From assembly GCA_021018995.1 (NCBI GenBank), contig CM037590.1, positions 104,719,097-104,783,096 of the forward strand: DNA of 64,000 nt. The letters run 5' to 3'. Below are positions 1,379 through 43,653 of the stretch, in pieces. How positions within the stretch are numbered: position 1 is the first letter of the stretch; every line of letters begins with the position of its first letter. The translations under genes were made by a program, and so were the position numbers. The notes under the pieces were generated by a model that saw only the letters and a list, made by a program, of their open reading frames with translations, did no database searches and was not told the DNA's origin. Source of the DNA: Chloranthus sessilifolius. Taxonomy: Eukaryota > Streptophyta > Magnoliopsida > Chloranthales > Chloranthaceae.

Positions 1379-2132
1379 ATATGTGTAAAGACCTGAAAAT
1401 TCTGAACAAGAACCTGACTGTTTCGATAAGCGTGCCTGACACGAAAATCGAGATAAATTCTCAAAATTAATAATGAATATTATTTAAAATAATGTTACCC
1501 CGTAGTTAGATGAATTCACATGTAAATTCTCTCTTAGGTCCGAGTAGTGTAGGACGCCGATGAGGCACGTTATGCCATAGCAACTGTGTTCACGCTCCAC
1601 ACCGGAACTTAAGTTAAGGAAAACAGAAATATCTGTGATATTTCTGTTCCATTAGCTTATAAGAGAAGGAAGAGGGGTTGGCCAAAACCTATCTTCATCT
1701 CCTTTCTTGATTTTTGAAGAGTCTGGAGCATTGCCTGAACCTAGAAGCCACTCTTTTGAAGAAACACAGTGAGAGAGAACCTAGGTTTGTAGATGTGTGA
1801 CCTTAGAGTGAGAAATCGACGGTAGTAAGTCGTATCGGATCGGCAAGGAGGTGTGCTGTCGCTACGTGTCAAAGCGGAGCCGCAAATTGCCATTCCCGAG
1901 TGAAGGGGGTGACAAATCCCAATTTCGGACCCGAAACCCTCTTCCGGATCATTTTGCCGAGACTCCGAAAGGGCCCAAGTAAAGGTGAGCCTATGCTTTT
2001 AAATTTGGACAGATGAGAGCCCTTATATGGGTGTTTGTGTGTGTATTAATGGTTATGAGAAATCATTAATGAAGATAGGTCAAATAGAAGAGAAATAAGT
2101 GATCTCCATTAATGATAGAGTTGTTGTCATTA

Positions 2133-2747
2133 TTGATCAATTAATGCTAGATTGATCAATCAATGAGGGTTATTGATCGATCAATAAGGACATTGATCAA
2201 TCAATTCATATAAGGTTAAAGAGAGAACAGTGGACTTGAAATCTCTGGAAGTTCAGAGCTCGAAGGGTGTTGATCGATCAATTCTGAAGGTTGATCGATC
2301 ACAGAGAGAGTGATTGATCAATGGCTGGTGTTGATCGATCAATAATGATATTGATCAATCACTTGTGTGTATTGATCGATCAATAAGGCTATTGATCGAT
2401 CAATCTCTATAAAGTACAAAAGGGAACAGAAGGAGGGAAATTTGAAAGTTTAGGCTATTGATCGATCAATGAGGTCATTGATCGATCAATGAGACATATT
2501 GATCAATCAACTGAGCTGGTGATCGATCAATTTTGCTCTGTCAAAGTGTGAAGAAGAAGGAGCTATTGATCGATCAATTCAGGTATTGATCGATCAATGA
2601 AAGGTGTTGATCAATCAATAAAGGCTATTGATCGATCAACTACCTCTGTTTGCTTATGAAGTAAATTGAGAGTAATGATCGATCAATGGGGACATTGATC
2701 GATCAACAAGGAGGATTGATCGATCAATAAGGGTGTTGATCAATCAA
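2133..2747. repeat. Phased array of the 12-bp palindrome TTGATCGATCAA (5' LTR)
   Basis: About 24 copies of TTGATCGATCAA or one- to three-base variants occur in five clusters. Start positions: 2133, 2152, 2173, 2193; 2270, 2291, 2310, 2331, 2351, 2372, 2392; 2458, 2478, 2499, 2519; 2566, 2586, 2607, 2628; 2675, 2695, 2716, 2736. Within clusters the spacing is always 19-21 bp. The 8-9 bases between copies are not conserved. The centre is a CG dinucleotide. The spacing equals about two turns of B-DNA, so the sites would face the same side of the helix. A binding-site role is inferred, not shown. Confidence 0.9.
2406..2413 (+). promoter_or_regulatory. Candidate TATA box of element 1 5' LTR
   Basis: CTATAAAG lies in the gap between the second and third palindrome clusters. 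The 3' LTR has the same motif at about 12349-12356 and element 2 has TATATAAAA at the equivalent gap (25921). If it is the promoter, transcription starts near 2435 and most of the 3' half of the LTR is transcribed. Confidence 0.5.
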
Positions 2748-3503
2748 TCACCCCTGTTTCTGTCCTGTTTTAGTTATGAGAATTGAATGCTACTGGACAC
2801 CGCACAAGCTGACTTTCTAACATACCTGACACGTAGTTTACTGTATTTATGGTCTAGGATCAGAACATGACACTTTAAAAAGCTTTGGATTTGCTTAGAA
2901 AGAGGTCTGACCTGAGGTAGGGGAAAACCAACCTAATCTATTTTTTACTATGATTTTATGATTCTTGCATACCTGCACCCTGATTTTTATTTTAACAAGC
3001 ATGTTAGCATATCATAAATTCCTGTTATATTTGATTCCTATTTTCTGATTTTGAATTTTGAAACTTGCTCCTGATTTCTGCTATCTGATTCGTGAGGTCT
3101 ATGTGTGTATGTGATTTGATGATTTAACCAGATGATCCCCACCGACCCGACGGTATATCTGTGCCTGACACACTTGTGCATTTGCTTTGTTAAACCCTCG
3201 GTAAAATTGCACTCCATAGATGAGGCATTGATGCACCCTGAAATTGTTCATGTGAACGACGATTGGTTGGGGTTTCCTATCGGTAGATTCCTGTTTACTC
3301 TGTGTTATATATTCATGAGAGTTTCTTAAGTTAGAAAATATATACAATTTAAGTCACTGATCATATACTTGCATAACATCTATTTCTTATTTTAAAAGCT
3401 CAGTATTTGATTTGATTTGTCTTGTTCGTATGTTCTGATTTGATTTCCCGCTTCGAGATATCATGATCTGCATATTCAATTCATTTAATTGGAATTCTTT
3501 TAT

Positions 3504-3522
3504 TGAGCTATGATGTAGCTCA
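3504..3522 (+). promoter_or_regulatory. Hairpin H1 beside a candidate 3' splice site
   Basis: TGAGCTA, loop TGATG, TAGCTCA: a perfect 7-bp stem. It ends 23 bases before the AG at 3544-3545. The same structure stands in the 3' LTR (13482-13500) and, on the minus strand, in solo LTR B (34650-34668), where the innermost pair is swapped (TGAGCTT with AAGCTCA), a compensatory change. Confidence 0.55.
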
Positions 3523-3545
3523 CCCTGTTTTCGTTAACATTTTAG

Positions 3546-3658
3546 GTTCTGAGGCTAGAGTTCCAGGCACCGAGAGTGACCCTAATTACCAGCCTGATCT
3601 AGAGGCTGAGGCCGAGGACGAGGAGACTGACGTCCAGGCAGACGATTTTTATCCTTAG
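3546..3658 (+). CDS. LTR-borne acidic terminal exon (5' LTR copy)
   Basis: After the acceptor-like TTAACATTTTAG, two bases GT and then 36 codons read SEARVPGTESDPNYQP, an acidic run, DVQADDFYP and a stop. The frame is conserved in the solo LTR (24511-24611), both LTRs of element 2 (26980-27089, 42947-43056) and, with very different sequence but the same phase and same ending type (TPAEEFLP), in solo LTR B (34528-34628, minus). In element 2 and element 1 the additional ORF ends at a donor in matching phase, so I infer this is its last exon when present in the 3' LTR. In a 5' LTR it would lie in the leader. No start codon of its own is proposed. Confidence 0.55.
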
Positions 3659-3784
3659 TCTCGGTATACTAGTCTGCTATTTTTGGGATTTTGTATAAAC
3701 TTTAGATTATTTTGTGCCTGGTGGCCACTTTCTGTATTTACTTTCTGTAGATATTTTTTTTTATTGTATTATTATGCATTCTAT

Positions 3785-3852
3785 AGGAACCACTATCAGG
3801 AACCATTGTTTGGGTGATGAATGTCCATCACCAGTGGTTCTTTTTGGTTCCT
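3785..3852 (+). promoter_or_regulatory. Hairpin H2 in LTR, AGGAACCA / TGGTTCCT type
   Basis: The segment starts AGGAACCACT and ends AGTGGTTC...GGTTCCT, with an inner perfect stem GGTGATG/CATCACC around a 6-base loop. Equivalent hairpins stand at 13752-13819, 24737-24804, 27219-27287, 43185-43252 and, on the minus strand, 34369-34440. It always lies about 180-290 bases from the LTR end. A role in RNA 3' processing, dimerisation or packaging is possible but unproven. Confidence 0.6.
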
Positions 3853-3960
3853 TTTTGGGAATGTATATTCTTTTGAGATATATATGTATTCATATTTTGT
3901 TTATTGCTTCTTTTTTTTTTGCAAAGCCTTATGTGTTGACTCAATCTACCACCGCTGGAC

Positions 3961-3996
3961 AGTGTCTGCTTGATTTTTACTATATAAGCAGACACT
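3961..3996 (+). promoter_or_regulatory. Hairpin H3 near LTR end, covarying stem
   Basis: AGTGTCTGCTT pairs perfectly with AAGCAGACACT over a 14-base loop. In element 2 (27388-27422) and the solo LTR (about 43537-43571) the base of the loop is GTGTCTGCTC/GAGCAGACAC, so a T-A pair has been exchanged for C-G. This is direct evidence for conserved pairing. It lies about 80 bases upstream of the primer-binding site. Confidence 0.65.
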
Positions 3997-4077
3997 TCGT
4001 GATTTGTTCTGGGGATCATCCAGAGTATGATCCTGATGGCACGGATTTTCGAGCATGAAAAACCAGGTTGTCATAGT

Positions 4078-4090: not shown

Positions 4091-4181
4091 TAGTCTTTAG
4101 GTTGAACTGCGGGTTCATGTTGGATTGTTTTCACAATCTATGTACTGATCAGTGTTATTGTTTTCACAATGATAGACCAGT

Positions 4182-9851: not shown

Positions 9852-11166
9852 ATGGGACTGCGCACGAAGAACCCTTCACATAAGGTACCCACTTCCCCGG
9901 CTCGTACACCCGTACCGCCCACTGATTCGATTCCCCAACCCTCTGTGCCACCTGTGGCATCTGTTTCGGACGTGGATCCACCCGTCCCAATCCCCGTCCC
10001 GACCCAAATCGAACGTGAAGTCCCCAATCCTTGGTGGGCTTGAAACCATTCCACGATCACCATTGCCCCCGGATCGTGCGGCTCTTCTTCTAGAACCTCC
10101 GTTGGGGTGATAGCCGACACCGACTCCTCACTTCCATTGACGGGTTCGAGTACAAATTCAACCAGTTTCATGTAGCGGCTGCACTACAGTGCTCGTCCGT
10201 TTACATTGAAACTACTGGATTGGATGCCCCAAACGTTAAAGATGTTCCTTTTCCCGACGTGGTCACCAAGATGACCCAAGGTCAACATGGGAAGGGGCAT
10301 TCCATCACACGGGCCCAATTACCTGATAAACTGTGGATGCTTGATACCTATATCAAGTGTGCACTTAACTCGTTCTTTCACAAGTCCTCACGGATCGGTG
10401 TTGTGCAACAGGCCTTGTTTTCGGCCTTTGAGAACCATTGGTTCTCTATGGCTGACTTGGTCATTGATGGCATCATAAATGCCAATGACCTCATGTCTGA
10501 GAAGGTTAAGTTCGAGGTTAAGAAACAGATCCCGTACGCGTGCCTCATTACCAAAATGGTGGAGCAATACGCTGCTCTACGCAAGGCGTACACTTTGGCT
10601 CCTAATGAGCCGCACTTGGTCAACAACACCAAGGTCTTCTACCTGAAGGATTGGACCAAGAGCTACAACCTCTTGGTTAGACGGCTCCCTGAGGATGAGG
10701 AGGGCGCAACTGAGCCCGTCGCGCCTACTGTTGCGGAGGGTGCGGCGCCCGCCGAGCCTGCGCTTAGAGAGGGGGAGGCACCATGTGATCCACCACCTCC
10801 GCTTGAGGTGTCTACCCGACCTACCCCCACCACACCCCATAGACTGCCCCGTCACGCCACATCACATCCCCCTCCTCCTTCCTCAGTCGACGTAGCATCG
10901 ATGCTTTGAGAGCTCGTGGAGGGGTAACCGGCGCATCCATGAGAGTTTGGACGGCATGGAGGCGTTCCAGCGGCAGATCCATCGTCGGTTGGATTATCAC
11001 GAGGGCATGCACAAGCTCGTCATGCAGCACTTATACACCACTACATCCACGCCGATGATTGCCCATGCCCGTCAGCACGTCGCGGATCCTCGCGATTACC
11101 GTACGCCGCCACCCCGCCCCACCAGACCTACGCCTGCAGAGCCCGGACCATCCGACGTCCCGGTAG
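9852..11166 (+). pseudogene. Additional ORF after pol, element 1
   Basis: It starts at ATG 9852 (MGLRTKNPS), matching element 2 (MGLRTKNAS). A Pro-rich N-terminus is followed by a conserved block (TSIDGFEYKFNQFHVAAALQ, CSSVYIETTGLD), then VVTKMTQGQHGKG, LPDKLWMLDTYIKCALN, IPYACLITKMVEQYAALR and a Pro-rich linker. The layout recalls the putative plant transposon protein domain (PF20167-type), a comparison made from memory. About 100 bases are missing after NPWWA relative to element 2, with a frameshift, so the protein is lost. The last codons, PSDVPVG, run over a donor-like G/GTACTTAC at 11166-11167. Confidence 0.7.
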
Positions 11167-11313
11167 GTACTTACTATGCTATTACGTGCTGCCCTTTTTT
11201 TTTCATTTTATCTGTATTCTGCATTCCATTTTCATTTATGTCTGCATATATTTTCATTCCCGTTTGCTATATCTTTTGATTCCTCCCTGACATTTTCGAG
11301 GATGAAAATTCCT

Positions 11314-11326
11314 AAGGGAGGGATAA
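11314..11326 (+). promoter_or_regulatory. Polypurine tract of element 1
   Basis: AAGGGAGGGATAA lies immediately before the 3' LTR. It is the usual place for plus-strand DNA priming. Element 2 has AAGGGGGGATAA at 40764-40775. Confidence 0.8.
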
Positions 11327-12072
11327 TGTAACGACCTGAAAATTCTGAACAAGAACCTGGCTGTTTCGATACGCGTGCCCGGCACAGGAATCGAGACAAA
11401 ATTTAAAAATTAATAATAAATATTATTTGAAATAATGTTACACCGTAGTTAGATGAATTCACATGTGAATTCTCTCTTAGGTCCGAGTAGTGTAGGATGT
11501 CGATGCGGCACGTTATGCCATAGCAACTGTGTTCACGCTCCACACCGGAACTTAAGTTAAGGAAAATAGAAATATCTGTGATATTTCTGTTCCATTAGCT
11601 TATAAGAGAAGGAAGAGGGGTTGGCCAAAACCTATCTTCATATCCTTTCCTAACTTCTGAAGAGTCTGGAGCATTGCTTGAACCTAGAAGCCACTCTTTT
11701 GAAGAAACACAGTGAGAGAGAACCTAGGTTTGTAGATGTGTGACCTTGGAGTGAGAAATCGATGGTAGTGCGTCGTATCGGATCGGCAAGGAGGTGTATT
11801 GTCGCTACGTGTCGAAGCGGAGCCACAAATTGCCATTCCCCACTGAAGGGGGACAAATCCCAATTTCAGATCCGAAACCCTCTTCCGGATCATTTTGTCG
11901 AGACCCCGAAAGGGTCCAAGTAAAGGTGAGCCTATGCTTTTAAATTTGGGTAGATGAGAGCCCTTATATGGGTGTTTGTGTGTGTATTAATGGTTATGAG
12001 AGACCATTAATGAAGATAGGTCAAATAAAAGAGAAATAAGTTACCTCCATTAATGATAGAGGTGCTGTCATT

Positions 12073-12735
12073 ATTGATCGATCAATGCTAGATTGATCAA
12101 TCAATGAGGGCTATTGATCGATCAATAAGGACATTGATCGATCAATTCATATAAGGTTAAAGAGAGAACAGTGGACTTGAAATCTCTGGAAGTTCAGAGC
12201 TCGAAGGGTGTTGATCGATCAATTCTGAAGGTTGATCGATCGCAGAGAAAGTGATTGATCAATGGCTGGTGTTGATCGATCAATAATGATATTGATCGAT
12301 CACTTGTGTGTATTGATCGATCAATAAGGCTATTGATCGATCAATCTCTATAAAGTATAAAAGGGAACAGAAGGAGGAAAATTTGAAAGTTTAGGCTATT
12401 GATCGATCAATGAGGTCATTGATCGATCAATGAGACATATTGATCGATCAATGAGACATATTGATCGATCAACTGAGTTGGTGATCGATCAATTTTGCTC
12501 TGTCAAAGTGTGAAGAAAGGAGCTATTGATCGATCAATTCAACTATTGATCGATCAATTCAACTATTGATCGATCAATGAAGGGTGTTGATCGATCAATA
12601 AAGGCTATTGATCGATCAACTACCTCTGTTTGCTTATGAAGTAAATTGAGAGTAATGATCGATCAATGGGGACATTGATCGATCAACAAGGAGGATTGAT
12701 CGATCAATAAGGGTGTTGATCGATCAATCACCCCT
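12073..12735. repeat. Phased palindrome array, 3' LTR of element 1
   Basis: Same clusters and spacing as in the 5' LTR. Nearly all copies here keep the perfect TTGATCGATCAA, while the 5' LTR shows CG-to-CA changes at six of the matched sites. Confidence 0.9.
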
Positions 12736-13841
12736 GTTTCTGTCCTGTTTTGGTTATGAGAATTGAATGCTACTGGACACCGTACCAGTTGACTTTCTAA
12801 CATAGCTGACAAGTAGTATATTGTATTTATGGTCTAGGATTAGAACATGACTCTTTAAAAAGCTTTGGATTTGCTTAGAAAGAGGTCTGACCTGAGGTAG
12901 GGGAAAACCAACCTAATCTGTTTTTGACTATGATTTCATGATTCTTGCATACCTGTACCCTGATTTTTGTTTTAACAAGCATGTTAGCATATTATAAATT
13001 CCTGTTATATCTGATTCCTGTTTTCTGATTTTGAATTCTAAAACTTACTCCTGATTTCTGCTATCTGATTCATGAGGTCTAGTGTGTATGTGATTGATGA
13101 TTTAACCAGATGATCCCCACTGACCCGACGGTATATCAGTGTCTGGCATACTTGTGCATCTGCTTTGTTAAACCCTCGGCATAATTGCACTCCATAGATG
13201 AGGCATTGATGCACCCTGAAATTGTTCATGTGAACGACGATTGGTTGGGGTTTCCTATCGGTAGATTCCTGTTTACTGCGCGTTATATATTCACAGGAGT
13301 TTCTTAAGTTAGAAAACATATACAATTTAAGTCGCTGATCACATACTTGCATAACATCTGTTTATTGTTTTAAAAGCTCCGTTTTTGATTTGATTTGTCC
13401 TGTTCACATGTTCTGATTTGATTTTCTGCTTCGAGATATCACGATTTGCATATTCAATTCATTTAGTTGGAATTCTTCTATTGAGCTATGATGTAGCTCA
13501 CCTTGTTTTCATTAACATTTTAGGTTATGAGGCTAGAGTTCCGAACGCAGAGTGACCACGACTACACTGATCTAGAGGAAATTTGAGGCGAGGAGGCGGC
13601 GTCGACAGACGATTTTTATCCGTAGTCTGGGTATACTAGTTTGCTGTTTTTTGGATTTTATATAAACTTTGGATTATTATGTGCCTGGTGGCCACTTTCT
13701 GTATTTACTTTCTGTAGAAATTTTTTTTTATTGTATTATTATACATTCTATAGGAACCACTATCAGGAACCATTGTTTGGGTGATGGATGTCTATCACCA
13801 GTGGTTCTTCTTGGTTCCTTTTTGGGAATGTATATTCTTTT

Positions 13842-13844
<3 letters not shown>

Positions 13845-13880
<36 letters not shown>
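13845..13880. repeat. (AT)18 microsatellite in the 3' LTR
   Basis: About 36 bases of perfect AT repeat where the 5' LTR has only ATATATAT (near 3881). As both LTRs were identical at insertion, the repeat expanded afterwards. Confidence 0.95.
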
Positions 13881-13883
<3 letters not shown>

Positions 13884-14071
13884 TATGTTGTTTATTGCTT
13901 CTTTCTTTTTTGAAAAGCCTTATATGTTGACTCAATCTATCACTACTGGACAGTGTCTGCTTGATTTCCACTATATTAGTAGACACTTCGTGATTTGTAT
14001 TGGGGATCATCCAGAGTATGATCCTGATGGCATGGATTTCCGAGTGCGGAAAATCGGACTATCACAATATG

Positions 14072-22245: not shown

Positions 22246-23053
22246 ATTTTAAACCAATATTTTGTGACAATGATTGATATGAAAATGATTATAATGACCC
22301 TAAAATTCTAGGACTTTCTGACTGCTTTGGTATACGTGCCTAGCATGGAAATCAAGGCAACTTTAAATTTATAATAATAATAATAATAATATCAATATTA
22401 TTATTCTGTAAGTGTGTGAAACCATGTGTCAAGTGTGACACAAATCTGAGGTTTGATTGGGCCTCCTATGGAATGGTACGCACCTAGGTTTGGTGTGTTT
22501 GCTCAACACCGGAACGGAAACTTAGAGAGGGAAATATCAAAGATATTTCTCTATTTTAGCGTATAAGGGAAGGAAGAGATTGGAACCTCACCTCTCTCCA
22601 TCTCCTTCTTCTGATTTGGTCTGGTTTTTGCCTGTAAAATCATGAGGGGTACATAATTCGAGTTCTAGAGAACTCCCTCTGTGAAACCTGTGTAAGAGAA
22701 ACCCTAGGTCCTTGATTTTCTGAACTAGAACGCGAAGGGAAACGTGTTTATATGTTGGGTGTGACCTTGAAAGGTAGACACCTTTGTGTATTCGCATGGA
22801 GTTGCACCTCTAACTCCATAAATTTGTCAACGGCGACAAACTCCCCGATTCGGATCCGAAACCCACGTTGGATCGCAAATGTCGTGAACTAAGGAGCAGC
22901 CATCAAAGAGGTGATTTACTAAGTATTTGTAGGGTCTTTGATATGATAAATGTGCATTTATGTTGCTTGAATGATTCGTGGAAGAATCATGATGATTAAT
23001 GGTTGAAACAAGTTAAAATCAACGAAAGGCATTAATGACAGAGACTGTCATTA

Positions 23054-23700
23054 CTGATCGATCAAATTGAGTATTTGATCGATCAAATTATAATCTGATC
23101 GATCAAATTTGGGATTTGATCGATCGAATTATATGAGTTCCCTATAGAACAGGAAACCTATTTTTAGAAGTTGATGCCCGATATGATTGATCGATCAAAT
23201 TGGAGATTTGATCGATCAAATTTGAAACTGATCAATCAGAATATGAAGTGATCGATCAAGTGTGAACTGATCGATTAATTGAGAATTGATCGATCGAACA
23301 GTGAGATTAATTGATCAAATTAGGAAATTGATCGATCGAAAAGAAAGATTGATCGATCAAAATAGGGATTTGATCGATTGAATCTTATATGCGCCTTATA
23401 GAACAAGAGGTTTATTTTATGAAATTTATGACTTTGAAATCCGATCGATCAAACGAATAAGTTGATCGATCAAGAATCCTCTGTTCTATATATATAAACT
23501 TTTGGGTTCCAATCGATCAATTATGAGAATTGATTGATCAACTTGAGAATCCGATCGATCAAATAGGGAGTTGATCGATCAGATTTCTTTGTTCTGCCTG
23601 TAAAGGATTAAGGCATCCGATCGATCAATTGAAGTGATTGATCGATCAGATTTGAATCCGATCAATCAAAAAGAAGAATTGATTGATCAAATTCCTTGTT
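23054..23700. repeat. Phased palindrome array in the solo LTR
   Basis: Variants TTGATCGATCAAAT and TTGATCGATCGAAT start at 23054, 23075, 23095, 23116 and continue in clusters to 23700 at 20-22 bp spacing. The preferred flank (AAAT) differs from element 1, yet the spacing is the same. Confidence 0.88.
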
Positions 23701-24510
23701 TTGGCTTGTTTGGTTTTCTGGGAAAAATACTACTGGGCAGTGTACCAATTTCTGTTATGACACTTCTGACACTTAGTATACTATACGTATGGTCTAGGTT
23801 AAAACCAAGACACCTTAAAAAGCTTTGGATTTGCTTAGAAAGATATGTTATGAGGTAGGGGAAATTCAACTCAACTTGTATCTAAATTTGATTGCATGGT
23901 CTCACGGCATTTGCATTCTGACTTCTGTTTTAAAAGCATGTCTTTCATATCAATGAAAGCTCTGTTATCTAATTTTATTATCCGATTCTGTTATCTAATT
24001 CTGCTATCTGATTCCTGAGGTCCGTTATATGTATTGATTTAAAGTTCATGTGACGAATCCCCCTGACGTGGCAAGATACCCACGACCTGTACAACGAGAT
24101 ATCTATATATCTGATTTATAAACCCACTGGTACAAGTTGCTCTCCTTTGAAGAGGCTTTATGTAAATATAAAAAATTATTCATTGAACGACGATGGTCGG
24201 GGTTACCCATCGGCACACATCTGACTACCACGTGCTTTATTCACGAGAGTTATTTAAGTATAAAATTTAAGTTACTAAATCTATATGCATGCATATGAAA
24301 ACTCTAAGAAAAAAGTGCATTTACATTATTACGCATCATTACATCTGTAAAAGTTACGCATCGATATTTGATCATTACATGCGGATTCTTGGATTTAAAC
24401 ATCTGTCTTGAGTTATGTTCTGCAAACGATATTTTACATTTTAGATGTAATTTATTTGAGTTTCTTTTATTGAGCTTAGATGGTTAGCTCACCCTATTTT
24501 CATATAATAG

Positions 24511-24611
24511 GTTCTGAGGCTAGGGCTCCCGACATGGAGAGTGATCCCAATTATCCGCCCAAGGCGTAGGCTGAGGAGGATACTGATACCCCTGCTGACG
24601 AGTTTTATTAG
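24511..24611 (+). pseudogene. LTR acidic terminal exon, solo LTR copy
   Basis: After CATATAATAG the frame reads GT, then SEARAPDMESDPNYPPKA, a TAG, and AEEDTDTPADEFY with a stop. Phase and ending match the other LTR copies. Confidence 0.5.
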
Positions 24612-25588
24612 TAACCTGAGTATCTAGTATGTTATTTTGGGATCTATATATGTATTTTGGATTATCTGTGTGCTTGGTGGCCACCTTTCTACATTATTTA
24701 CTATAGATGTTTTACTTATAGTTTTATACATTCTATAGAAACCACTATTGGGAACCATTATTTTGAGTGATGGATATCCATCACCAGTGGTTCTTCTTGA
24801 TTCCTTTTTGAGGATGTGTGTTCTTTTGTTATACATGTATTTTGTAATAGCCCTAAAATTCTGAACAAGAAACCTACTGCTTTGATATACATGTCCAACA
24901 TGGAAATTGAGATAAATAAAAAATATTTAATTTAATATTATGAAAGATAATATTAATCAGTGGTAGAGTGAAGTCATGTGTGACTTATCGTTTAAGTCTG
25001 AGTCGTGTAAACCCTTGATGAGGTGTGGTACGCCATAGAAACTGTTTAGGTGCTCCACACAGGAGCTTAAGTTAAGGTAAAATAGAAATATCAAAGATAT
25101 TTCTATTTCTTAGCTTATAAGTGAAGGAAGAAGCATTGTATACCCACTTTGCATCTTCCTCTTCCTGCTTGTCCTGAGAAATTCAGTTAGGTTATGATTT
25201 TTAGGTGGTAGCTTTGAGAAACCACAGTAGAGAGAGACCTAGGTTAGTGATTGCTCAATTGGAGAGCGTGGAACCGACGGCATTATGTTAATCTATCTTA
25301 CAAGAACGTGCACTGTCACTGTGTGTCAAAGCGGAGGCACAAATCCATTGTCTTGGGTCGTAACGGTGACAAACCTTCCGATTTAGAATTCGAAACCCTC
25401 TTCGGATCGCATTGCCGGGATCCCGAAAGGTACTTCAAATAGGTGAGTTTTAGGTTTAAAATGGTGGAGGTTAAGACCTCATTAATGTACAAATGGGTGT
25501 GTGTGTGTGGTTGTTAGAAACCATTAAGAAGCAATGATGAAAATTGATCAAACTAGTGATCGCCATTAATGACAGAAAACTGTCATTA

Positions 25589-26165
25589 TTGATCGATCAA
25601 AGTAGTTAATTAATCGATCAAAATTGGGATTGATCGATCAAGGCAGTGAATTGATCGATCATTTTGTATAACCAGTTAATGAGAATAGTAAGTGAGCTTT
25701 CTGGAAGTTCGATGCCCGATGAGCATTGATTGATCAATTTGGAGTTTGATCGATCAATTCTGAAGGTTGATCGATCAAATTTGGAATTGATCGATCAATA
25801 AGAAAGGCTGATCGATCACAGTGAAGTGATCGATCAAAGGCAAGAATGATCGATCAATAGGAAATTGATCAATCAATGAGGCGGATTGATCGATCAATTT
25901 AGAGATTGATCGATCAAAATTATATAAAAGTTATACAAATAGAGGGGCGCTATTTTTGAAAATTTAAAATTTGTCTAGATTGATTGATCAATGGGGAAAT
26001 TGATCGATCAAATTGAGGGATTGATCGATCAATGTGGAAGATTAATAGATCAAGTTACTTAGATTTTGTGAGTTAAATAAGATGATTGATCGATCAAGGA
26101 AGGCAATTGGTCGATCAAGGTGATGGATTGATCGATCAAGCAGGGACATTGATCGATCAATCACC
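25589..26165. repeat. Phased palindrome array, 5' LTR of element 2
   Basis: Copies of TTGATCGATCAA and close variants from 25589 at about 20-22 bp intervals, in clusters on both sides of the TATA-like sequence at 25921. Confidence 0.88.
25921..25929 (+). promoter_or_regulatory. Candidate TATA box, element 2 5' LTR
   Basis: TATATAAAA in the gap between array clusters, matching the TATAAAG position of element 1. The 3' LTR has TTATATAAAT at 41861. Confidence 0.5.
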
Positions 26166-26979
26166 CCTATTTTTCTGCTGTTTTAGTTTTGTGGGCAAAA
26201 CACTACTGGGCACTGCGCCAGTTAGTATCCTGACATGTCTGACACTTAGTGTACTATGTCTATGGTTTAGGATCAGACCATGATGCATTGAAAAGCCGTG
26301 GATTTGCTTAGAAAGAGGTCTGATCTAAGGTAGGGGAAATCCAACCTAAAAATGTATCTGAATATGATTTCATGATTCCTTCATATCTGTATCCTGATTT
26401 TCTATTTTAAAAGCATATTTGCATATCAATCAATCTCTATCATCTTTGATTCCTGCATTCTGATTTCTGTGTTCTGAAGCCTGTTTCTGATTTCTAATAT
26501 CTGATTTTTGAGGTCATATGTGTGTATATGATTTTAAGTATTTAATCTAGATGATCCCCACCGACTCGACGGTATATCCGTGCCCTGGCACAATTATGTA
26601 TTTGCTTTGATAATCCCTCGACACAATTGCACTCTATAGATGAGGCATTGTTGCACTCTAAAAATTGTTCATATGAACGACGATTGGTTGGGCTTTCCTA
26701 TTGGCATATACCTGATTACCACGTGCTATATATTCACGGGAGTTTCTTAAGTTAGAAATATGCATGATTTAAGTCACAAATTATATACTAATAGCATCTA
26801 TTCTTTTCTTTGAAAACTCAGTACATGTCATTTGATTTATCCTGTCTGCATATTCTTACTTGATCATCTGTTTGAGATACTACCTGCAAAATCATGTCTT
26901 ACATTTTTAATATAATTTTAGCTGTGATTCTTCTACTTAGTTTAGATGTAGCTCACCCTGTTTTCTATAACATTAATAG

Positions 26980-27089
26980 GTTCTGAGGCTAGAGCTCCTG
27001 GTACAGAGAGCGATCCTGTCTACCAGCCTGATCCGAAGGCTGAGGCTAAGGAGGAGGATACCGATACCCCAGTTGACGAGTTCTATTAG
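26980..27089 (+). CDS. LTR acidic terminal exon, element 2 5' LTR
   Basis: After CATTAATAG: GT, then SEARAPGTESDPVYQPDP, an acidic stretch, TDTPVDEFY and stop. It is intact here. Same phase as the copies at 3546 and 42947. Confidence 0.55.
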
Positions 27090-27218
27090 CTTTCTGGGTA
27101 TTAGTTTATACTTTTTTTGGTTTTCGTACTGAATTCTAGATTATTTGTGTGCCTGGTGGCCACCATCTGTACTTATTATTATAAATGTTGTATTTACTTG
27201 TATTGTTATACATTCTGT

Positions 27219-27422
27219 AGGAACCACTATTAGGAACCATTATTTTGGGTGATGGATGTCCATCACCAGTGGTTCTTCTTGGTTCCTTTTTGGAGAATAT
27301 ATATTCTTTTATCTTATAAATATGTATTGTTTATTTTTTCTTTTTCTTAAAAATATATATGATGACTCGATCTGCCACTACTGGATAGTGTCTGCTCTGA
27401 TTTTCGCTAGACGAGCAGACAC
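27219..27422 (+). promoter_or_regulatory. Hairpins H2 and H3 of element 2 5' LTR
   Basis: H2 (27219-27287) starts AGGAACCACT and ends TGGTTCCT with inner stem GGTGATG/CATCACC. H3 (27388-27422) pairs GTGTCTGCTC with GAGCAGACAC over 15 bases. H3 differs from element 1 by a paired exchange. Confidence 0.6.
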
Positions 27423-27505
27423 TCTGTGATTTATCCTGGGGATCATCCAGAGCATGATCTTGATGGCACAAATTTTCGAGTGTAGAAAATTCGGGCTGTC
27501 ATAGT

Positions 27506-33200: not shown

Positions 33201-33602
33201 CTTGGGAAGCTGCTAAAGCATCTGCCAATTGATAGGTAGGCTGAGTGCATTGGTGGAGTTTATTTATAGGAGCTAGAGCAGTTGGCTGCAATAGACATGT
33301 TGGATGGTGGCCTCCGGTTTCAGCACCCATTGGCAAGGTTCAAGTTGTTGCATTTATCAGTTTCAGAACATGCTGCTATGTGAAATTGAATGCAGGTTAG
33401 TATGCAGCTGCTGGGTGCTGAGCTCCTTAGCTGTTGATTGGTTCAAAACTCCTCTAAATGGCTCTTTTTACTGGAAAACTGCACTAAGGATAAAATTACC
33501 TCTTTGTTGCAAAACAATACTAAAAGCAAATATTAAATACTCTAAGTCCTAGCAAAAGCCAGGTTTAAAGGTGTAGAAAGTGAAAAAAATCAGTGACCAA
33601 CA
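30247..33602. mobile_element. Insertion A: 3.36 kb, unclassified, rich in CGATAGGTT
   Basis: It splits the RT/RNase H linker of element 2. Its ends are TATTGG and CCAACA, the TG...CA inverted form of an LTR with one change, and it is flanked by TTTCC (30242-30246) and TCTCC (33603-33607), a 5-bp duplication with one mismatch. No repeated ends or coding domain were found, so it may be a large solo LTR. From 31690 to 33240 it holds more than 20 copies of CGATAGGTT, CGATAGGAT or CGACAGGTT at irregular distances. 30260-31680 shows no gene. Confidence 0.6.
31688..33240. repeat. Dispersed CGATAGG motif cluster
   Basis: Examples: 31689, 32027, 32203, 32243, 32283, 32338, 32377, 32429, 32509, 32536, 32566, 33229. 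Many are preceded by TT or CT and followed by TT or AT. Between copies the sequence is rich in GCTGC/GCAGC words. Spacing is about 25-50 bp and not phased. Confidence 0.75.
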
Positions 33603-33607
33603 TCTCC

Positions 33608-34189
33608 AAACTATCAAGTCCGCTTACTCAGCTCACCAAGAAAAATGATAAGTTTGATTAGACTGATCAGTGTGAGAAGAATTTCTAAGAACTCAAGACG
33701 CGTCTGACTACAGCACCAGTGCTATCTATACCTTATGGCGGAGGAGGTTTTGCTATATACAGTGACGCATCTTACAGTGGTTTGGGTTGTGTCCTCAACC
33801 AGCACAAGAAGCTTATCGCGTACAGCTCTAGACAGCTCAAGGAACACGAGAAGAATTATCCGACTCACGATCTGGAGTTAGCAGCAGTGATCTTTGCTTT
33901 GAAGATCTGGAGGCACTACTTATACGGTGAGACATTCGACATCTTCACTGACCACAAGAGTCTCAAGTAACTTTTCACTTAGAGGGATTTAAATATGCAA
34001 CAGCGCAGATGGATGAAGTTTTTAAAGGATTACGACTGTTCCATCCAGTATCATCCTGAGAAAGCTAATATTGTGGCGGATGCCTTAAGCAGAAAGTCTT
34101 CGGCTCAGTTGGCACATCTTATTACCAGAGTACAGAGGTGGCATCTACTTGAGGACCTGGCCTAATGAGATACATTGATAGACGTCAAA
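33608..34189 (+). pseudogene. RNase H of element 2
   Basis: It resumes after insertion A ([10 protein letters not shown]) and reads [20 protein letters not shown] (33748), [39 protein letters not shown] and FTDHKSLK (33943-33968) before a stop. [20 protein letters not shown] follows at about 34040-34100. Then LEDLA and a stop, cut at 34190 by solo LTR B. Confidence 0.88.
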
Positions 34190-34527
34190 TGTGACGACCC
34201 GACTTTTCCAATCCTTAAGGTATAGGAAAGGCTGGTTCATCATCTTATTGAATTCTCAATAAGCCGTATTTCAAACAAAGCCGGCAGCATAAGCATAGAT
34301 CTAAATAGAAGCAAAGCTAATAAAACAAGAACAAAAACTTAAAAGCTTTAACAAAAAAATATCACCAAGAGGAACCAGAAAGAACCACCAGTGTTGGCCA
34401 ATCCAAACACCTAAACAATGGTTCCTATTGATGGTTCCTCAAGTGATATCCAAAAGACAAAACAATGGCCTAGGGCCCAATATTCAAAAAGATTATAATC
34501 CAAAAGTACCAAAATGACCTATCTCGA

Positions 34528-34628
34528 TCAAGGAAGGAACTCCTCTGCTGGGGTCTCCAACTCCTCCTCAGCAATGTAGTCAGAGTTCTCCAAATCACGA
34601 TCGTCAGATCCTAAGGCAGTGTCAGCAC
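34528..34628 (-). CDS. LTR acidic terminal exon, family B version
   Basis: On the minus strand, after ACGTCACAG: GT, then ADTALGSDDRDLENSDYIAE, an acidic run, LETPAEEFLP and stop. The sequence is very different from elements 1 and 2, but phase, acidity, length (33 codons) and the TPA-E-F ending agree. Confidence 0.5.
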
Positions 34629-35766
34629 CTGTGACGTATAGTCGGGGTATGAGCTTCATCCAAGCTCAGTAGGAAAAAAAAAACTAATAACATGCTTATC
34701 ATAACATCAAACACATATCTTATGGCATAACGTACACAAAGTTGTTTTGAACACATGCAGAGAGGTGATTTCATAACCTTAACATACATATGCAATGCTA
34801 ATGGAATCATGAATATGCTCACATTTCTATTCCGACATAAGAAAGAAGAAAAACTTAAAAGTGTTTACTTAAAGTACTAGAATGAGGAACTATAGCCTCA
34901 AGCCCCCGATGGAATACCCACCATCGTCACTCACATGAGTCATTTGCACATAAATCCAAGGTCCGTGAGTTGGACACTTGGCGAACATAATTACCGTTAT
35001 CGGTAAGAATCACAAAAGCACATATCACAAAGGGTGTATGCGGATTGGCGCCCGTGCAGTCACGGATATCTGCCGCGTCGATCACGGTTATACGCTTGGC
35101 GTCGGTCGGGTATTCACATAACCTTAAATCCAAAAGTGCATACATATAGCTTATCGCCGTGTGAAGTGATAATTATAATTTATATCAGAAGTCGGAACAA
35201 AGTGTGAAAGTCTCTTATACACATATTAAATGAATCTCGAGGATTCCATAAGTCTCACATGTTTTTAAGTCATACATAAACACATGCCTCATTTCTTCAA
35301 AATCATAAACGAAAATCACAAAATAGGATCGAAGAATGTATCATAACATAACACACATGTTTATGAAATAATGCACATGATATCAAGTTTTCCCTACCTT
35401 AGTTTAGAGTCGAGCATATCAGAGGCAAAGTAAAAGCTCACTCGACGATCTCCAATCTTTAATCTACATTACAAACATTCATTTATACACATGTTACCGA
35501 CTAATTATCATATAAGCCAAAGTTTCTAAAATTTTCTCACAGTTAGGCGAAACAGGCAAGTTTAAGGTAACATTGACTCATGTAAAAACTTGTCCCTACT
35601 TCACCCTACTTTTTAACCTTTATAACATTCGATTCACAAATTGGTCAATTCATGAAAGTTATAGGGCTCGTTGTCTTCTTTCTAACGCCTCAAAAATCAC
35701 ATTAATCCGAGTTCGGAATAAAACGTTATGACTGAAATACCAAAGCAGTATCGGACCAAATTCGAC

Positions 35767-35882
35767 CATCGAATTTTCCAAAAATGCATCAGGCTTAAAA
35801 ACCCAAATTCGACCATCAAATTTATTTTCGATGGTCGAATTTCAAATTCGACCATCGAATTGAAATTCGACCCTCGAATTTC
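35767..35882. repeat. ATTCGACCATCGAATT cluster in LTR B
   Basis: Four or five copies of AATTCGACCATCGAATTT or its reverse. One pair, 35805-35817 and 35830-35842, forms a perfect 13-bp inverted repeat (AAATTCGACCATC / GATGGTCGAATTT) with a 12-base loop. Confidence 0.8.
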
Positions 35883-36641
35883 TCCAGATCTGTGTGTTCC
35901 AGATTTATTCTTCCGACTTGATTTTTCATTCCAAAACACCAATCCATCTATCTTTTTCAGACGTACCCTTTATCTAAACTATTCTAAGCATAAATAATTT
36001 TAATCAAAGGTGTTTAAAGAGCCTACCTTTCAAGGTCTGCACCTAGCTTCCGTGGATCTATTCTTAAGCACCGAATTAAGCCGCATGAAGTTCAATTTGG
36101 ACCCCAAAATCAGTACATCTTCACGTTGCTACCAGGGCAAAGGTTAGCCCAGATCCTTCACCAAACCGTCCACTCTCCCCTAGTCTTCCTTTTCAATGCA
36201 TCTAACCGATCATCACCACATGACAAGTCTTTTCAACGATTGAGATGGGGAGAGGGGGGTTTACAAACTCACTAGATCTAAAATCAAAGGTGAGGCAGAG
36301 CTTGCAAGTTCTTAAATCCAATGAGAGAGAGAGAGAAGTTACACTTCTCTTTCAAACTCTCTCTTATAACATAAAAACAAAGCTAAAATATCTAGATTTT
36401 TCTATTTGCAATCCTATCTACTTAACTTGAAATTAAATCCGACGTGAAACACAAACATTCAACTTATTGTGTAAGTCATCGTTTACATGACTTCCACACG
36501 TCACGAAACAAAATCCTTTGGCCATTATTCTTATCATATCCAAAACTAAACAAAAATCCAGAAAATTTTCGTAATAATTTTCGGACACGCTTACCGAGGT
36601 AAATAAAATCTGGTCCAAAATATCTGGGATATTACATCAAA

Positions 36642-37937: not shown

Positions 37938-38014
37938 GTATACTTAGAAGCATTCAAGAAACTTACGATTCCCTAGTTAAATCAATTAGCTATGGAATTA
38001 ACATTTATTTTTAG
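37938..38014 (+). other. Candidate intron inside integrase, 77 bp
   Basis: CAG/GTATAC to ACATTTATTTTTAG/G, with a branch-like GGAATTAAC about 20 bases before the end and stops in frame. It has full consensus ends here, while element 1 has lost the donor GT. Confidence 0.65.
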
Positions 38015-38434: not shown

Positions 38435-39138
38435 CGTGGAAGGTACTTTCACGATTTTCGTTTAAATTTCATCATCGAGATTATATGCTTATCAAATGTC
38501 AGCACACATGTTTTGACGAGTATACTTTGCTTGTACGGGTCCGGTATATGAGCTATCATAGTTCCTTATCTTCGAAATGAAGTTGAAAAGCATTAACGAC
38601 ATAAAAATTTTATGGGATAGCTTGCTGTCAGGATTGATCGATCAAATATATAAGATTGATCGATCAAATTGGGTTTGAACCATAGGCTATTTTAGAATGT
38701 TTGATTGATCAAAAGTGAAGATTGATCGATCAATTTTGTGGATTGATCAATCAATGTAAGTGCATTGATCGATCAAGGCTGTCGAGATAGGGCAGTTTAA
38801 GTTCGACATTGATCGATCAATTTTGAGGGATTGATCGATCAAGGTATCGGCTAGGGCATTTTCACTTAAGAATTGATCGATCAATTTGAGCATTGATCGA
38901 TCAACCCTATCGTTTTAAGTAACGATTGGGGTTTTTTAAATCTCATTTGCACGATTGAGGTTTTCAATCGTTTAAAGGGTTCTCATTTGCTTTATGTTCA
39001 AGCAACCTTTTAGGGTGATTTCTGGCTACCTGAACTCCTCTCCGCATGAATTTAGCTCAGATTTCACTCGGTCAAATCGGTAAACCCTAACCTCCTTTAA
39101 ATTTGGGTTTTTTGTGCCTTTTTGAACCTTATTACACT
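38435..39138 (+). repeat. Post-pol spacer with palindrome array, element 2
   Basis: TTGATCGATCAA-type copies start at 38634, 38656, 38701, 38722, 38743, 38765 and continue to about 38906. Spacing within clusters is 21-22 bp. The array ends about 230 bases before the additional ORF. Confidence 0.8.
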
Positions 39139-40555
39139 ATGGGGCTGCGAACCAAGAATGCGTCGCGCAAAATCCCCACATCCCGGGTTCGTGCATCAGT
39201 GCCGCCCGCCGAACTAGTCGCACCAACCTTTGTGCCACCTGTGGCACTTGTTGAGAACGTGGTGCTCCCTGTTTTGAACCCCCAACCACCCCAAATCCAA
39301 TGCGAAGCCCCAAATCAGTGGTGGGCTTCCAAAACTTTCCTACCCGAATATGTTTTCGCCTCTACACTTTTTGAGGATTGGCCTAAGATGACTTGCGCCA
39401 TCAACTACATCAAAAAGCTTAGGCTGGAACCCTTACTTGAGTTGTTTCACGATTATTATTGTCCTCGAATCGTGCAACTTTTCTTCCAAAACCTCCGTCG
39501 GGGCCACAGCCGACACCAACTCGTTACCTCGATTGATGGGTTTGAGTATAAATTTAACCAGTTTCATGTCGCAGCTGCCCTACAGTGCACTTCGGTGTAC
39601 ATTGAGACTTGTGGCTTAGCGCCATTGTGCATCAAGGACGTCCCGTTACATGACGTGGTCACCAAAATGACTCAGGGTCAGCATGGATTAGGGCAATCCA
39701 TTACCCAAGCTCAACTCCCCAACCGGTTGTGGATGCTTGATACATTTATCAAGTGTGCCCTTAACCCATTTTTGCACAAGTCTGCACGGAGCGGCATTGC
39801 GCAATAGGCGCTCTTCTCGACTTTCGAGGACCATTGGTTCTTCGTTTCCGATTTGGTTCTTGATGGCATGATCAATGCCAAAGAAATGATGTCGGAGAAG
39901 ACCAAGGCTGCTTCAAAGAAGTAGATGCCTTATGCTTGCCTCATCATTAAGATGGTTGAGCACTATGTGGCCTTGAGAGAGGCGTATAGCTTGGCTCCCG
40001 GTGAGCCTCGGTTGACCAATAACACGAAAGTGTTTCAATTAAAAGACTGGATCAGGAGTTATAACCTTTTGGTCAAGCAGTTTGCACGAGGAGAGGAGGA
40101 GGTTCCTTGATTCGGAGAGTGCGAGGCTAGCGCTGACTGCTTGAGGAGGAGGACAGCGGAGAGTTCTGGTGAGGGAGGCCCGGCTGATCGACCACCTCGG
40201 CCGGTATCTCCTTGACCTACCCCTATACGCCGACTTGCCCATGCCTCTACGTCGCGTGGACCTGCTCCTTCTACCGTTGACATGGAAGCGATGCTTCGTG
40301 AGCTCATTGAGGGCAACCGGTGTATCCACGAGCGGCTGGACGGGATGGAGGAGTTTTAAGGTTAGGTTCATCGCCGGTTGGATTACCATGAGGGCATGCA
40401 CGAGCTCTTGATGCATCACTTGTATGCCACCACGTCGATGCCGATGATCGCTCATGCCCGTCAGCATACTGTGGATCCTTGTGACTACAGTACCCAGCCA
40501 CCTCGCCCCAGCAGACCTGCACCTGACGAGGCCGGACTTTTCAACACCCCGGCAG
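39139..40555 (+). pseudogene. Additional ORF after pol, element 2
   Basis: It starts MGLRTKNASRKIPTSRVR and is open for 223 codons, then has TAG codons at 39805 and 39922. Blocks in order: Pro-rich N-terminus, NQWWASKTFLPEYVFASTLF, EDWPKMTCAINYIKKLRLEP, IVQLFFQNLRRGHSR, TSIDGFEYKFNQFHVAAALQ, VVTKMTQGQHGLGQSITQAQ, RLWMLDTFIKCALNPFLHKS, MPYACLIIKMVEHYVALREA, then a Pro/Arg-rich tail with MPMIAHARQH. The pattern resembles the putative plant transposon protein domain (PF20167-type; from memory). It ends NTPAG at the donor-like GGCAG/GTACTTAC (40555/40556), in phase with the acidic exon at 42947. Confidence 0.75.
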
Positions 40556-40763
40556 GTACTTACTATGCTATTATCTGTATTATTTGATCATTATATCTGT
40601 ATATGTATTTTATTCTGCTTTCCATATACATTCTGTTCTGCATGCATCCCTGTTTTTGCATGATGTATTCGTCTGCTCGTTCTGCTTTACTATGACTATT
40701 AGCCTTAGAACACACCATTCCTCTGACTAAACCTCCCTGACATATTTGAGGACAGAAATTCCT

Positions 40764-40775
40764 AAGGGGGGATAA
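40764..40775 (+). promoter_or_regulatory. Polypurine tract of element 2
   Basis: AAGGGGGGATAA directly before the 3' LTR. Confidence 0.8.
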
Positions 40776-41528
40776 TGTAATAGCCCTAAAATTCTAAACA
40801 AGAGACCTACTGCTTTGATATACGTGTCCGACATGGAAATTGAGATAAATTAAAAATATTTAATTTAATATTATGAAAGATAATATTAATCAATGGTAGA
40901 GTGAAGTCATGTGTGACTTCTCATTTAAGTTCGAGTCGTGTAAACCCTTGATGAGGCGTGGTACGCCATAGAAACTGTGTAGGTGCTCCACACTGGAGCT
41001 TAAGTTAAGGTAAAACAGAAATATCAAAGATATTCCTATTTCTTAGCTTATAAGTGAATGAAGAAGTGTTGTATACCCACTTTGCATCTTCCTCTTCCTG
41101 CTTGTCTTGAGAAATTCAGTTAGGTTATGATTTTTAGGTGGTAGTTTTGAGAAACCACAGTAGAGAGAGAGAGAGACCTAGGTTAGTGATTGCTCGATTG
41201 GAGAGCGTGGAACCGACGGCATTACGCTAATCTATCTTACAAGAACGTGCGTTGTCACTGTGTGTTAAAGCGGAGCCACAAATCCATTGTCTTGGGTCGT
41301 AACGGTGACAAACCCTCCAATTTAGAATTCGAAACCCTCTTCGGATCACGTTGTCGGGATCCTGAAAGGTACTTCAAATAGGTGAGTTTTAGATTTAAAA
41401 TGGTGGAGGTTAAGACCTCATTAATGTATAAAATGGGTGTGTGTGTGTGGTTGTTAGAAACCATTAAGAAGCAATGGTGAAAATTGATCAAACTAGTGAT
41501 CGCCATTAATGACAGAAAACTGTCATTA

Positions 41529-42126
41529 TTGATCGATCAAAGTAGTTAATTAATCGATCAAAACTGGGATTGATCGATCAAGGCAGTGATTTGATCGATC
41601 AATTTGTATAACCAATTAATGAGAATAGTAAGTGATCTTTCTGGAAGTTCGATGCTCGATGAGCATTGATTGATCAATTTGGAGTTTGATTGATCAATTC
41701 TGAAGGTTGATCGATCAAATTTGGAATTGATCGATCAATAAGAAAGGCTGATCGATCATAGTGAAGTGATCGATCAAAGGCAAGAATGATCGATCAATGG
41801 GAAAATTGATCGATCAATAAGGAGGATTGATCGATCAATTTAGAGATTGATAGATCAAAATTATATAAATGTTATACAAACAGAGGGGCGGTATTTTTAA
41901 AATTTTAAAGTCTGTCTGGATTGATCGATCAATGGGGAAATTGATTGATCAAATTGAGGGATTGATTGATCAAATTGAGGGATTGATTGATCAATGTGGA
42001 AGATTGATCGATCAAGTTACTTAGATTCAGTGTGAGTTAAATAAGATGATTGATCGATGAAGGAAGGCAATTGATCGATCAAGGTGATGGATTGATCGAT
42101 CAAGCATGGACATTGATCGATCAATC
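41529..42126. repeat. Phased palindrome array, 3' LTR of element 2
   Basis: Same arrangement as 25589-26165. An extra unit (AAATTGAGGGATTGATTGATC repeated) is present near 41950-41990. Confidence 0.88.
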
Positions 42127-42946
42127 ACCCCTATTTTTCTGTTGTTTTAGTTTTGTGGACAAAATACTACTGGGCACTGCGCCAGTTATTATCCTGACAT
42201 GTCTGACACTTACTATACTATGTCTGTGGTTTAGGATCAGACTATGATGCTTTGAAAAGCCATAGATTTGCTTAGAAAGAGGTATGATGTAAGGTAGGGG
42301 AAATCCAACCTAAAAATATATTTGAATATGATTTCATGATTCTTTCACATCTGTATCCTGATTTTCTATTTTAAAAGCATGTTTGCATATCAATCAATCA
42401 ATCTCTGTCATCTCTGATTCCTACATTCTGATGTCTGTGTTCTGAAGCCTGTTTTTGAATTCTGATATCTAATTCTTGAGGTCATATGTGCGTATGTGAT
42501 TTTAAGTATTTAATCCAGATGATCCCCACCGACTCGGTAGTATATCCGTGCCCTGGCACAATCGTGCATCTACTTTGATAATCCCTCGGCACAATTGCAT
42601 TCCATAGATGAGGCATTGTTGCACTCTGAAAATTGTTCATATGAACGACGATTGGTTGGGGTTTCCTATCGGCATACACCTGATTACCACGCGTTATATA
42701 TTCATGGGAGCTTCTTAAGTTAGAAATATGCATAATTTAAGTCACAAATTATATACTAATAGCATCTGTTCTGTTCTTTGAAAACTCAGTACATGTTATC
42801 TGATTTATCCTGTCTGGATATTCTGATTTGATTATCTGTTTGAGATACTACCTGCAAAATCATGTCTTACATTTTTAATACAATTTTAGCTGTGATTCTT
42901 CTACTGAGCTTAGATGTAGCTTACTCTGTTTCTATAACATTAATAG

Positions 42947-43056
42947 CTTCTAAGGCTAGAGCTCCCAGTACAGAGAGCAATCCTGTCTACCAGCCTGATC
43001 CGGAGGCTGAGGTTGAGGAGGAGGATATCGATACCCCAGCTGTTGAGTTCTATTAG
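42947..43056 (+). CDS. LTR acidic terminal exon, element 2 3' LTR
   Basis: After ACATTAATAG: CT, then SKARAPSTESNPVYQPDP, an acidic run, IDTPAVEFY and stop at 43054-43056. It is the copy that would be spliced to the additional ORF from donor 40555. The joined codon is G plus CT and the frame stays open to the stop. Confidence 0.55.
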
Positions 43057-43469
43057 CTGTTTGGGTATTAGTTTGTACTTTTTTTATTTTCGTACTGAAT
43101 TCTAGATTATTTGCGTGCCTGGTGGCCACCGTTTGTACTTATTATTATAAATATTGTGTTTACTTGTATTGTTACACATTCTGTAGGAACCACTATTAGG
43201 AACTATTGTTTTGAGTGATAGATGTCCATCACTAGTGGTTCTTCTTAGTTCCTTTTTGGAGAATGTATATTCTTTTATATGATAAATATGCATTGTTTAT
43301 TGTTTCTTTCTCTTAAAGTCATATATGATGACTCGATCTTTCACTACTGGACAATGTCTGCTCTGATTTCAGCTAGACGAGCAGACACTCTGTGATTTAT
43401 CTTGGGGATCATCCAGAGCATGATCCTGATGGCATGGATTTCCGGGTGCGAAAAATCAGGGCTTTCACA

Positions 43470-43653
43470 TATTTACTGTTTTATTCCTTTCTTTCTGTTA
43501 GAGCCTTATATGATGACTCGATCTACCACTTTTGATAGTGTCTGCTCTGACTTCCGCTAGACGAGCAGACACTCTTTTGTTTGTTCCGGGAATCATCTAG
43601 AGTTATGATCCTGATGGGATGGGTTTTCGGGTGTGTAAATCTGAGCTGTCACA
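43470..43653 (+). mobile_element. Chromovirus solo LTR, second piece
   Basis: Final 184 bp of the LTR begun at 22290, including the H3 hairpin (GTGTCTGCTC / GAGCAGACAC) and the end CTGTCACA, followed by the duplication ATGAT. Confidence 0.9.

Follow-up and report, generated by a model that had tools for sequence, protein, structure and literature searches.

The window analysed here, a 64,000-nucleotide (64-kb) stretch of Chloranthus sessilifolius contig CM037590.1, contains two related Ty3/gypsy long terminal repeat (LTR) retrotransposons, E1 and E2, with a chromovirus-type pol, and our subject is the additional open reading frame (aORF) that lies in sense orientation between their pol and 3′ LTR and is predicted to be completed by a short acidic coding exon inside the LTR itself. 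We assign the elements to Ty3/gypsy because a gag zinc knuckle, reverse transcriptase (RT) and integrase lie between the LTRs, Pfam reporting zf-CCHC and RVT_1 in E1 and Integrase_H2C2 and SH3_Tf2-1 in both elements. A Chromo match in E2 (E 3.2e-5, 24.2 bits) falls just under the cut-off of 25.1 bits, and none was reported for the E1 piece. In each element the two LTRs share 93% identity at aligned positions; the target duplication ATATG flanks E1 on both sides, and no matching duplication was seen for E2. A primer binding site resembling that for initiator methionine tRNA (TGGTATCAGAGCC) lies downstream of the E2 5′ LTR and, together with LTRs of 2.7–2.9 kb, would presumably suit the Tekay clade. 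Membership in CRM group A, in which the integrase frame runs into the 3′ LTR, was rejected, as the E2 pol frame stops at 38434, ∼2.3 kb 5′ of the start of the 3′ LTR.

In E2 the aORF arrives in phase 1 at a donor, GGCAG/GTACTTAC (40555/40556), and the E1 donor lies at 11166/11167. An acceptor in the E2 3′ LTR, TTAATAG, ending at 42946, opens an acidic frame of 36 residues (split codon included) followed by a TAG that ends at 43056. The first-pass annotation had these coordinates exactly right, and its statement that donor and acceptor agree in phase in both elements also holds (the E1 acceptor ends at 13523). It had further counted open frames in three of five window LTR copies, which we find in the E1 5′ LTR and both E2 LTRs, and correctly described the E1 frame as broken in the 3′ LTR and intact in the 5′ LTR. 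What it took for a solo LTR with an open frame, B, is however a partial LTR in which the frame is closed early by an in-frame stop. Coordinates of all these features are collected in Table 1.

Table 1. Features of E1, E2 and the partial LTR B (window coordinates; introns and exons are predictions)
Feature	Position	Strand	Remarks
E1 5′ LTR	1384..4075	+	3′ end approximate; target site duplication ATATG at 1379-1383
E1 5′ LTR exon copy	3546..3658	+	open, 37 residues
E1 aORF region up to donor	9852..11166	+	frame interrupted in E1 copy
Predicted E1 intron	11167..13523	+	same phase as E2
E1 3′ LTR	11327..14066	+	target site duplication ATATG at 14067-14071
E1 3′ LTR exon copy	13524..13625	+	broken by dense small indels
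Partial LTR B	23030..24827	+	
Exon copy in partial LTR B	24511..24611	+	in-frame TAG after residue 19; 9-nt in-phase deletion
E2 5′ LTR	24843..27503	+	3′ end approximate
E2 5′ LTR copy of frame	26980..27089	+	open
E2 aORF	39139..40555	+	472 codons plus one base up to donor; six in-frame stops in E2 copy
Predicted E2 intron	40556..42946	+	GTACTTAC donor; spans polypurine tract and first ∼2.17 kb of 3′ LTR; ends TTAATAG; splicing inferred
E2 3′ LTR	40776..43653	+	
TATAAG box candidate	41049..41054	+	LTR position 274; 274-275 in all four long LTR copies
Predicted terminal coding exon, E2 3′ LTR	42947..43056	+	acidic frame plus TAG; open

Both halves of this arrangement recur in the host genome, where the family is very large. 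A search with the aORF gave 37331 first-look candidates, of which 150 were scored; all 150 match at E ≤ 0.001, and by our own count ∼33 of them are free of stops in the searched part of 222 residues. Among 43 genome copies the donor dinucleotide is GT in 40 and GC in 3, the phase match between donor and LTR frame holds in the genome sample, and the 54 codons 5′ of the donor are open in 27 of 39 fetched donor copies. The ratio of nonsynonymous to synonymous substitution rates (dN/dS) of the aORF frame 5′ of the donor is 0.33–0.49. A conserved donor and an acceptor in matching phase, the marks by which we judged an accessory gene, are thus both present, and the acidic tail, which ends in DEFY or DFYP, occurs in four subfamilies (A, E1, B and D).

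Queries made from the LTR segment each returned 2251–4234 first-look candidates in the 2.17-Gb genome, 40 of which were scored per query, and 299,574 bases in 214 loci plus one locus of 141 bases were read. Subfamilies A, E1 and B yielded 109 exon copies, the E1 3′ LTR of the window included; 80 retain the AG and a frame of 33–39 residues, and the stop is at the expected place in 102, of which 101 were used for dN/dS (the misaligned E1 3′ LTR being excluded). Obtained by counting on these sets, which were picked by exon similarity, dN/dS between subfamilies is 0.21 for A–E1, 0.14 for A–B and 0.28 for E1–B (dS 0.79–0.96). The two LTRs of a single element, whose differences should postdate insertion, served as a neutral control: position (same contig and strand, 8–37 kb apart) proposed 18 such pairs, and the 16 usable ones give 0.97 (34 synonymous and 124 nonsynonymous differences). 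When single copies were drawn at random 3000 times for each pair of subfamilies, all ratios computed stayed below 0.97, and Fisher p values for the average pair against the five LTR pairs that are mutual best by flank are 0.011, 0.003 and 0.028 in the three subfamily comparisons. Across 68 long loci the exon frame has a mean dN/dS of 0.19, under all 174 control windows of the same LTRs (minimum 0.24, median 0.73). Together these data show that purifying selection acts on this frame at the protein level in lineages that have transposed, which supports the suggestion of the first-pass annotation, and we hold it very probable that the LTR contains a real coding exon under selection.

The lowest control, 0.24 in one frame, lies 232 bases upstream of the exon (about window 42715–42820) and may reflect chance or another constrained stretch; with it the margin of the exon over the best control is not wide. 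Multiples of three make up 29 of 40 indels in the exon against 1 of 260 in the flanks, and this contrast is given less weight because the triplet indels fall mostly in GAG/GCT repeats of subfamily B and stem partly from the 9-nt deletion of the reference copy. Two further points weigh against the overall reading. The five strict LTR pairs on their own give a ratio of 1.8 (synonymous 3.5, nonsynonymous 23.5), so that the neutral value of 0.97 rests on the 16 candidate pairs, and the ratios within subfamilies, which mix old and new differences, are 0.66 (A), 0.26 (E1) and 0.38 (B).

If the segment were untranslated and kept for a nucleotide function (as an enhancer, an RNA structure or a control of splicing or polyadenylation), its open frame would be a by-product of recent ancestry; exon copies lie only ∼10% from their subfamily reference, a divergence so small that many copies would retain a frame that was open in their ancestor. 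Such a function would also fit the well-conserved stretch that lies ∼120–290 bases 3′ of the exon (0.81–0.88 between window LTRs) and the one control window at 0.24, but it would leave unexplained why the in-frame ratio between subfamilies is 0.14–0.28 at a dS of 0.79–0.96 while values in the exon's two alternative forward frames are 0.4–2.0. We therefore regard this explanation as quite improbable. The antisense frame that shares the codon periodicity of the exon gives 0.26–0.33.

Since these three copy sets were picked by exon similarity, the counts were repeated on copies chosen by the 3′ flank alone (all 40 read in A, 34 of 40 in E1) and on 17 copies chosen for an aORF free of stops in the searched part. 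In A, 35 of 40 flank-chosen copies are open, three have non-triplet indels and two have premature stops (one of them without the acceptor), and in E1 21 of 34 are open, with six premature stops and seven non-triplet indels; four of those six stops fall directly after DY, consistent with a C-to-T change of a CAG there. In 36 of 40 (A) and 30 of 34 (E1) the frame follows an AG acceptor. Of the 17 copies chosen by aORF, 13 yielded the exon, which, sorted by eye, is fully open in seven, stopped prematurely in three and frameshifted in three; it was not found in L148, L150, L155 and L157, the LTR of L150 beginning only 540 bases before the sequence examined ends.

An in-frame stop lies nine codons upstream of the frame in 34 of 35 A copies, and 34 of 35 copies of A and 24 of 25 of E1 (58/60 together) are devoid of any ATG from the in-frame stop upstream through to where the frame ends, so in these subfamilies the LTR frame needs an upstream exon, and a stand-alone LTR peptide is ruled out. 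This exclusion covers A and E1, as 13 of 21 intact B copies do have an ATG in this interval, which counts against an obligate upstream exon there; 5 of 86 intact copies are too short upstream to reveal a stop.

Frame-breaking indels across many LTRs, which the first-pass annotation had named, together with a lack of spliced reads, as the outcome that would refute its proposal, are found in one subfamily. Subfamily D was seeded from L151, and 21 copies were read as ∼211-base stretches and judged by eye. The full frame is intact in only four; two further copies keep the ending in phase (L173 and L176, the latter without the AG), and in the remaining 15 the frame is lost or ends early. Of these 15, about ten carry several small indels clustered in the exon and the next ∼20 nt, with nearly identical flanks. 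These counts speak against a coding exon at the end of the aORF, and one explanation would be that a once-coding tail is being lost, past selection still being visible in A, E1 and B and the tail being dispensable in younger lineages such as D, where L151 has an intact aORF though only 4/21 copies are fully intact at the exon. However, the copy that seeded the D sample was itself broken, the intact D copies carry the same kind of tail, and 7 of the 13 aORF-chosen copies with an exon keep it intact, which makes such a loss highly improbable in our view.

Localized scrambling of the exon extends to other copies. The two E1 LTRs agree at 77% of positions in a 100-base window that covers most of the exon, compared with 93% overall, and the 3′ LTR alone is scrambled though both LTRs share the target duplication. 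Similar dense indels occur in a few copies of A and E1; L191, L202 and L205 show them, and in L199 the shift is restored further on. L151 and L175, which lie 8 kb apart on the same strand and are probably the two LTRs of one element, are scrambled differently. Dense small indels in the exon and ∼20 nt beyond it, between short flanks that are nearly identical, can be seen in many of the copies at window 13524–13625 and in L165–L184, L151, L191, L202 and L205. Assembly error, error-prone reverse transcription at a purine-rich segment or a post-insertion process are possible sources. We think it unlikely that one LTR segment combines a selected coding exon with a recurrent hotspot of localized scrambling; if it does, reverse transcription or a post-insertion process would mutate this short segment in isolation and silence the tail in many progeny.

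From the sequence, the best reading is that the aORF is spliced to a last coding exon lying in the 3′ LTR, and we give this a probability of about 0.72. The first-pass annotation had proposed the LTR frame as the last exon of the aORF, and its proposal is partly supported by the conserved, phase-matched donor and by the need for an upstream exon in A and E1, the splice itself being a prediction. Judged on these grounds the aORF is likely but not proven to be the partner of the LTR exon. Several observations weigh against this pairing. Twelve of the 39 donor copies have a stop in the last 54 codons, two of them out of the expected frame, and dN/dS past the donor is 0.61, a modest change from the 0.33–0.49 before it. 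The donor, GTACTT, has no G at +5, which makes it weak by the plant consensus. If the intron is retained, 22 of 43 donor copies have a common stop 10 codons past the donor, so the aORF could also end unspliced. In addition, a whole-genome search for retrocopies of the spliced junction (23 letters) found none at 0–2 mismatches; its 21 matches, all at three mismatches, compare with four for a reversed control. Six of the 21 start with CACAATAG or CGCAATAG, like the LTR acceptor, and eight with CTCGA; the only one of the 21 that was read, L215 (CTCGA start), was rejected as a junction copy because it is an unrelated tandem repeat.

The shared stop also favours a model in which the LTR frame is a real exon with another upstream partner (the leader, gag, pol or a neighbouring host gene) and the aORF ends unspliced soon after 40555. 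The leader of both E2 LTRs would offer donor-like sites for this, GTACTT and GTGAGT at LTR positions 587–593 and 600–606, yet the phase-1 frame at both sites lacks an ATG, and scanning the two E1 LTRs for the same pattern turns up no leader donor-like site. Moreover, the aORF donor is conserved and in the right phase, and the unspliced frame past it is not common to all lineages: those like L151, in which the aORF is intact, differ by 2 nt just after the donor. On balance, and with a scan for other donors that covered the leader, we consider another partner unlikely.

With the aORF as partner, the additional gene, which lies in sense orientation 3′ of pol and ahead of the 3′ LTR, would encode a protein of ∼510 residues, its first ∼472 codons lying in the internal region up to the conserved donor and its last ∼36, the acidic tail, inside the LTR. 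An intron of ∼2.4 kb, comprising the polypurine tract together with the greater part of the 3′ LTR, would be removed as the aORF donor and LTR acceptor are joined in the RNA. Transcription may start near the TATAAG of the LTR, ∼1.9 kb 5′ of the exon, with polyadenylation past the exon; such a start and end would place the exon in the repeated (R) region, at both ends of the genomic RNA, and in solo LTRs too. The splice would have to be inefficient because full-length RNA has to survive.

Four aORF proteins from the genome align with both window pieces over ∼470 residues. Two of these four match nearly the whole profile of PF20167 (Transposase_32, putative plant transposon protein) at E 0.0051 and 0.013 (15.8 and 17.2 bits, far below the curated cut-off of 45 bits) and the other two have no match to it, and we therefore rejected membership in this family. 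Pfam reported nothing for the window aORF pieces alone, and a protein database gave no match at E 0.001 either for the 472-residue aORF read-through (5575 candidates) or for a six-sequence aORF alignment (8000 candidates scored). The predicted aORF structure is unusable (mean predicted local distance difference test score, pLDDT, 38.3; predicted template modelling score, pTM, 0.26).

Several other features of the window were noted. The E2 3′ LTR has a ∼185-bp tandem duplication near its end (43296–43653) that the E2 5′ LTR lacks, and many copies of a palindrome-like sequence, TTGATCGATCAA, are spread over LTRs and the pol–aORF interval (41500–42130, 25580–26160, 12070–12730 and 38630–38910). 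Foreign sequence at 30300–36600, probably a nested insertion, separates the E2 RT from integrase and includes short matches to a CTCGACAGGTT-like tandem repeat near 32080–33200. A 77-nt GT..AG insert (37938–38014) that breaks E2 pol just 5′ of the SH3/chromo part of integrase (EFQ/VGDKV) looks like a small intron; at the same pol site E1 has extra sequence near 8600 without a clear GT donor. Open reading frames at 60276–60782 and 62877–63434 match the plant mobile domain profile PF10536 (E 2.4e-10, with the match of the second under the cut-off) and apparently represent another transposon-related gene.

Genes within a 3′ LTR are familiar from retroviruses (nef, sag and the end of tax), and the rec/np9 genes of HERV-K(HML-2) differ from the present case in belonging to a vertebrate retrovirus and in an acceptor outside the LTR. 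As far as the available text of the papers cited here goes, group A of the CRM clade of chromoviruses encodes the integrase CR motif in the 3′ LTR (PMC3059260, PMC3605345), so that a plant chromovirus coding sequence entering the 3′ LTR has a precedent there. In those elements it is the pol frame itself that extends into the LTR, with no intron mentioned in the available text, whereas in the present family pol stops at 38434 and it is another gene that would, by predicted splicing, continue in an exon of its own ∼2.17 kb into the LTR. Sense extra open reading frames and splicing are likewise established in plant LTR elements (PMC7264820, PMC6317226, PMC11728184, PMC11963269). The Bagy-2 env has the same place between pol and the 3′ LTR and the Ogre gag-pol intron the same recourse to splicing, but the accessible parts of these sources place no coding exon in the LTR (PMC7264820, PMC6317226). 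The sense aORF of sunflower Athila has partial similarity to PF20167 (PMC11728184), a likeness shared below threshold by two of our four proteins, while in sunflower Tekay the aORF is located 5′ of gag-pol, and the main text of that paper does not mention splicing (PMC11728184). In Caenorhabditis elegans, CERV is made from a five-exon mRNA (PMC10309623). In our searches of the open-access literature, titles and the beginnings of abstracts revealed no plant element whose LTR holds a spliced coding exon, although such a search cannot prove that none exists.

CRM chromoviruses are already known to code into their 3′ LTR, and an LTR exon reached by splicing would be a novel form of such coding. 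If the splice is real, this is a plant retrotransposon accessory gene divided between internal region and LTR, whose exon is copied into every LTR, solo LTRs included. Each such LTR would carry an acceptor, a short coding tail, a stop and possibly a poly(A) site, and so offer a ready terminal exon to neighbouring host genes. Annotation that treats LTRs as non-coding would overlook such exons; as the LTR pairs of single elements provide a built-in neutral control, selection on LTR exons can be tested in any large genome.

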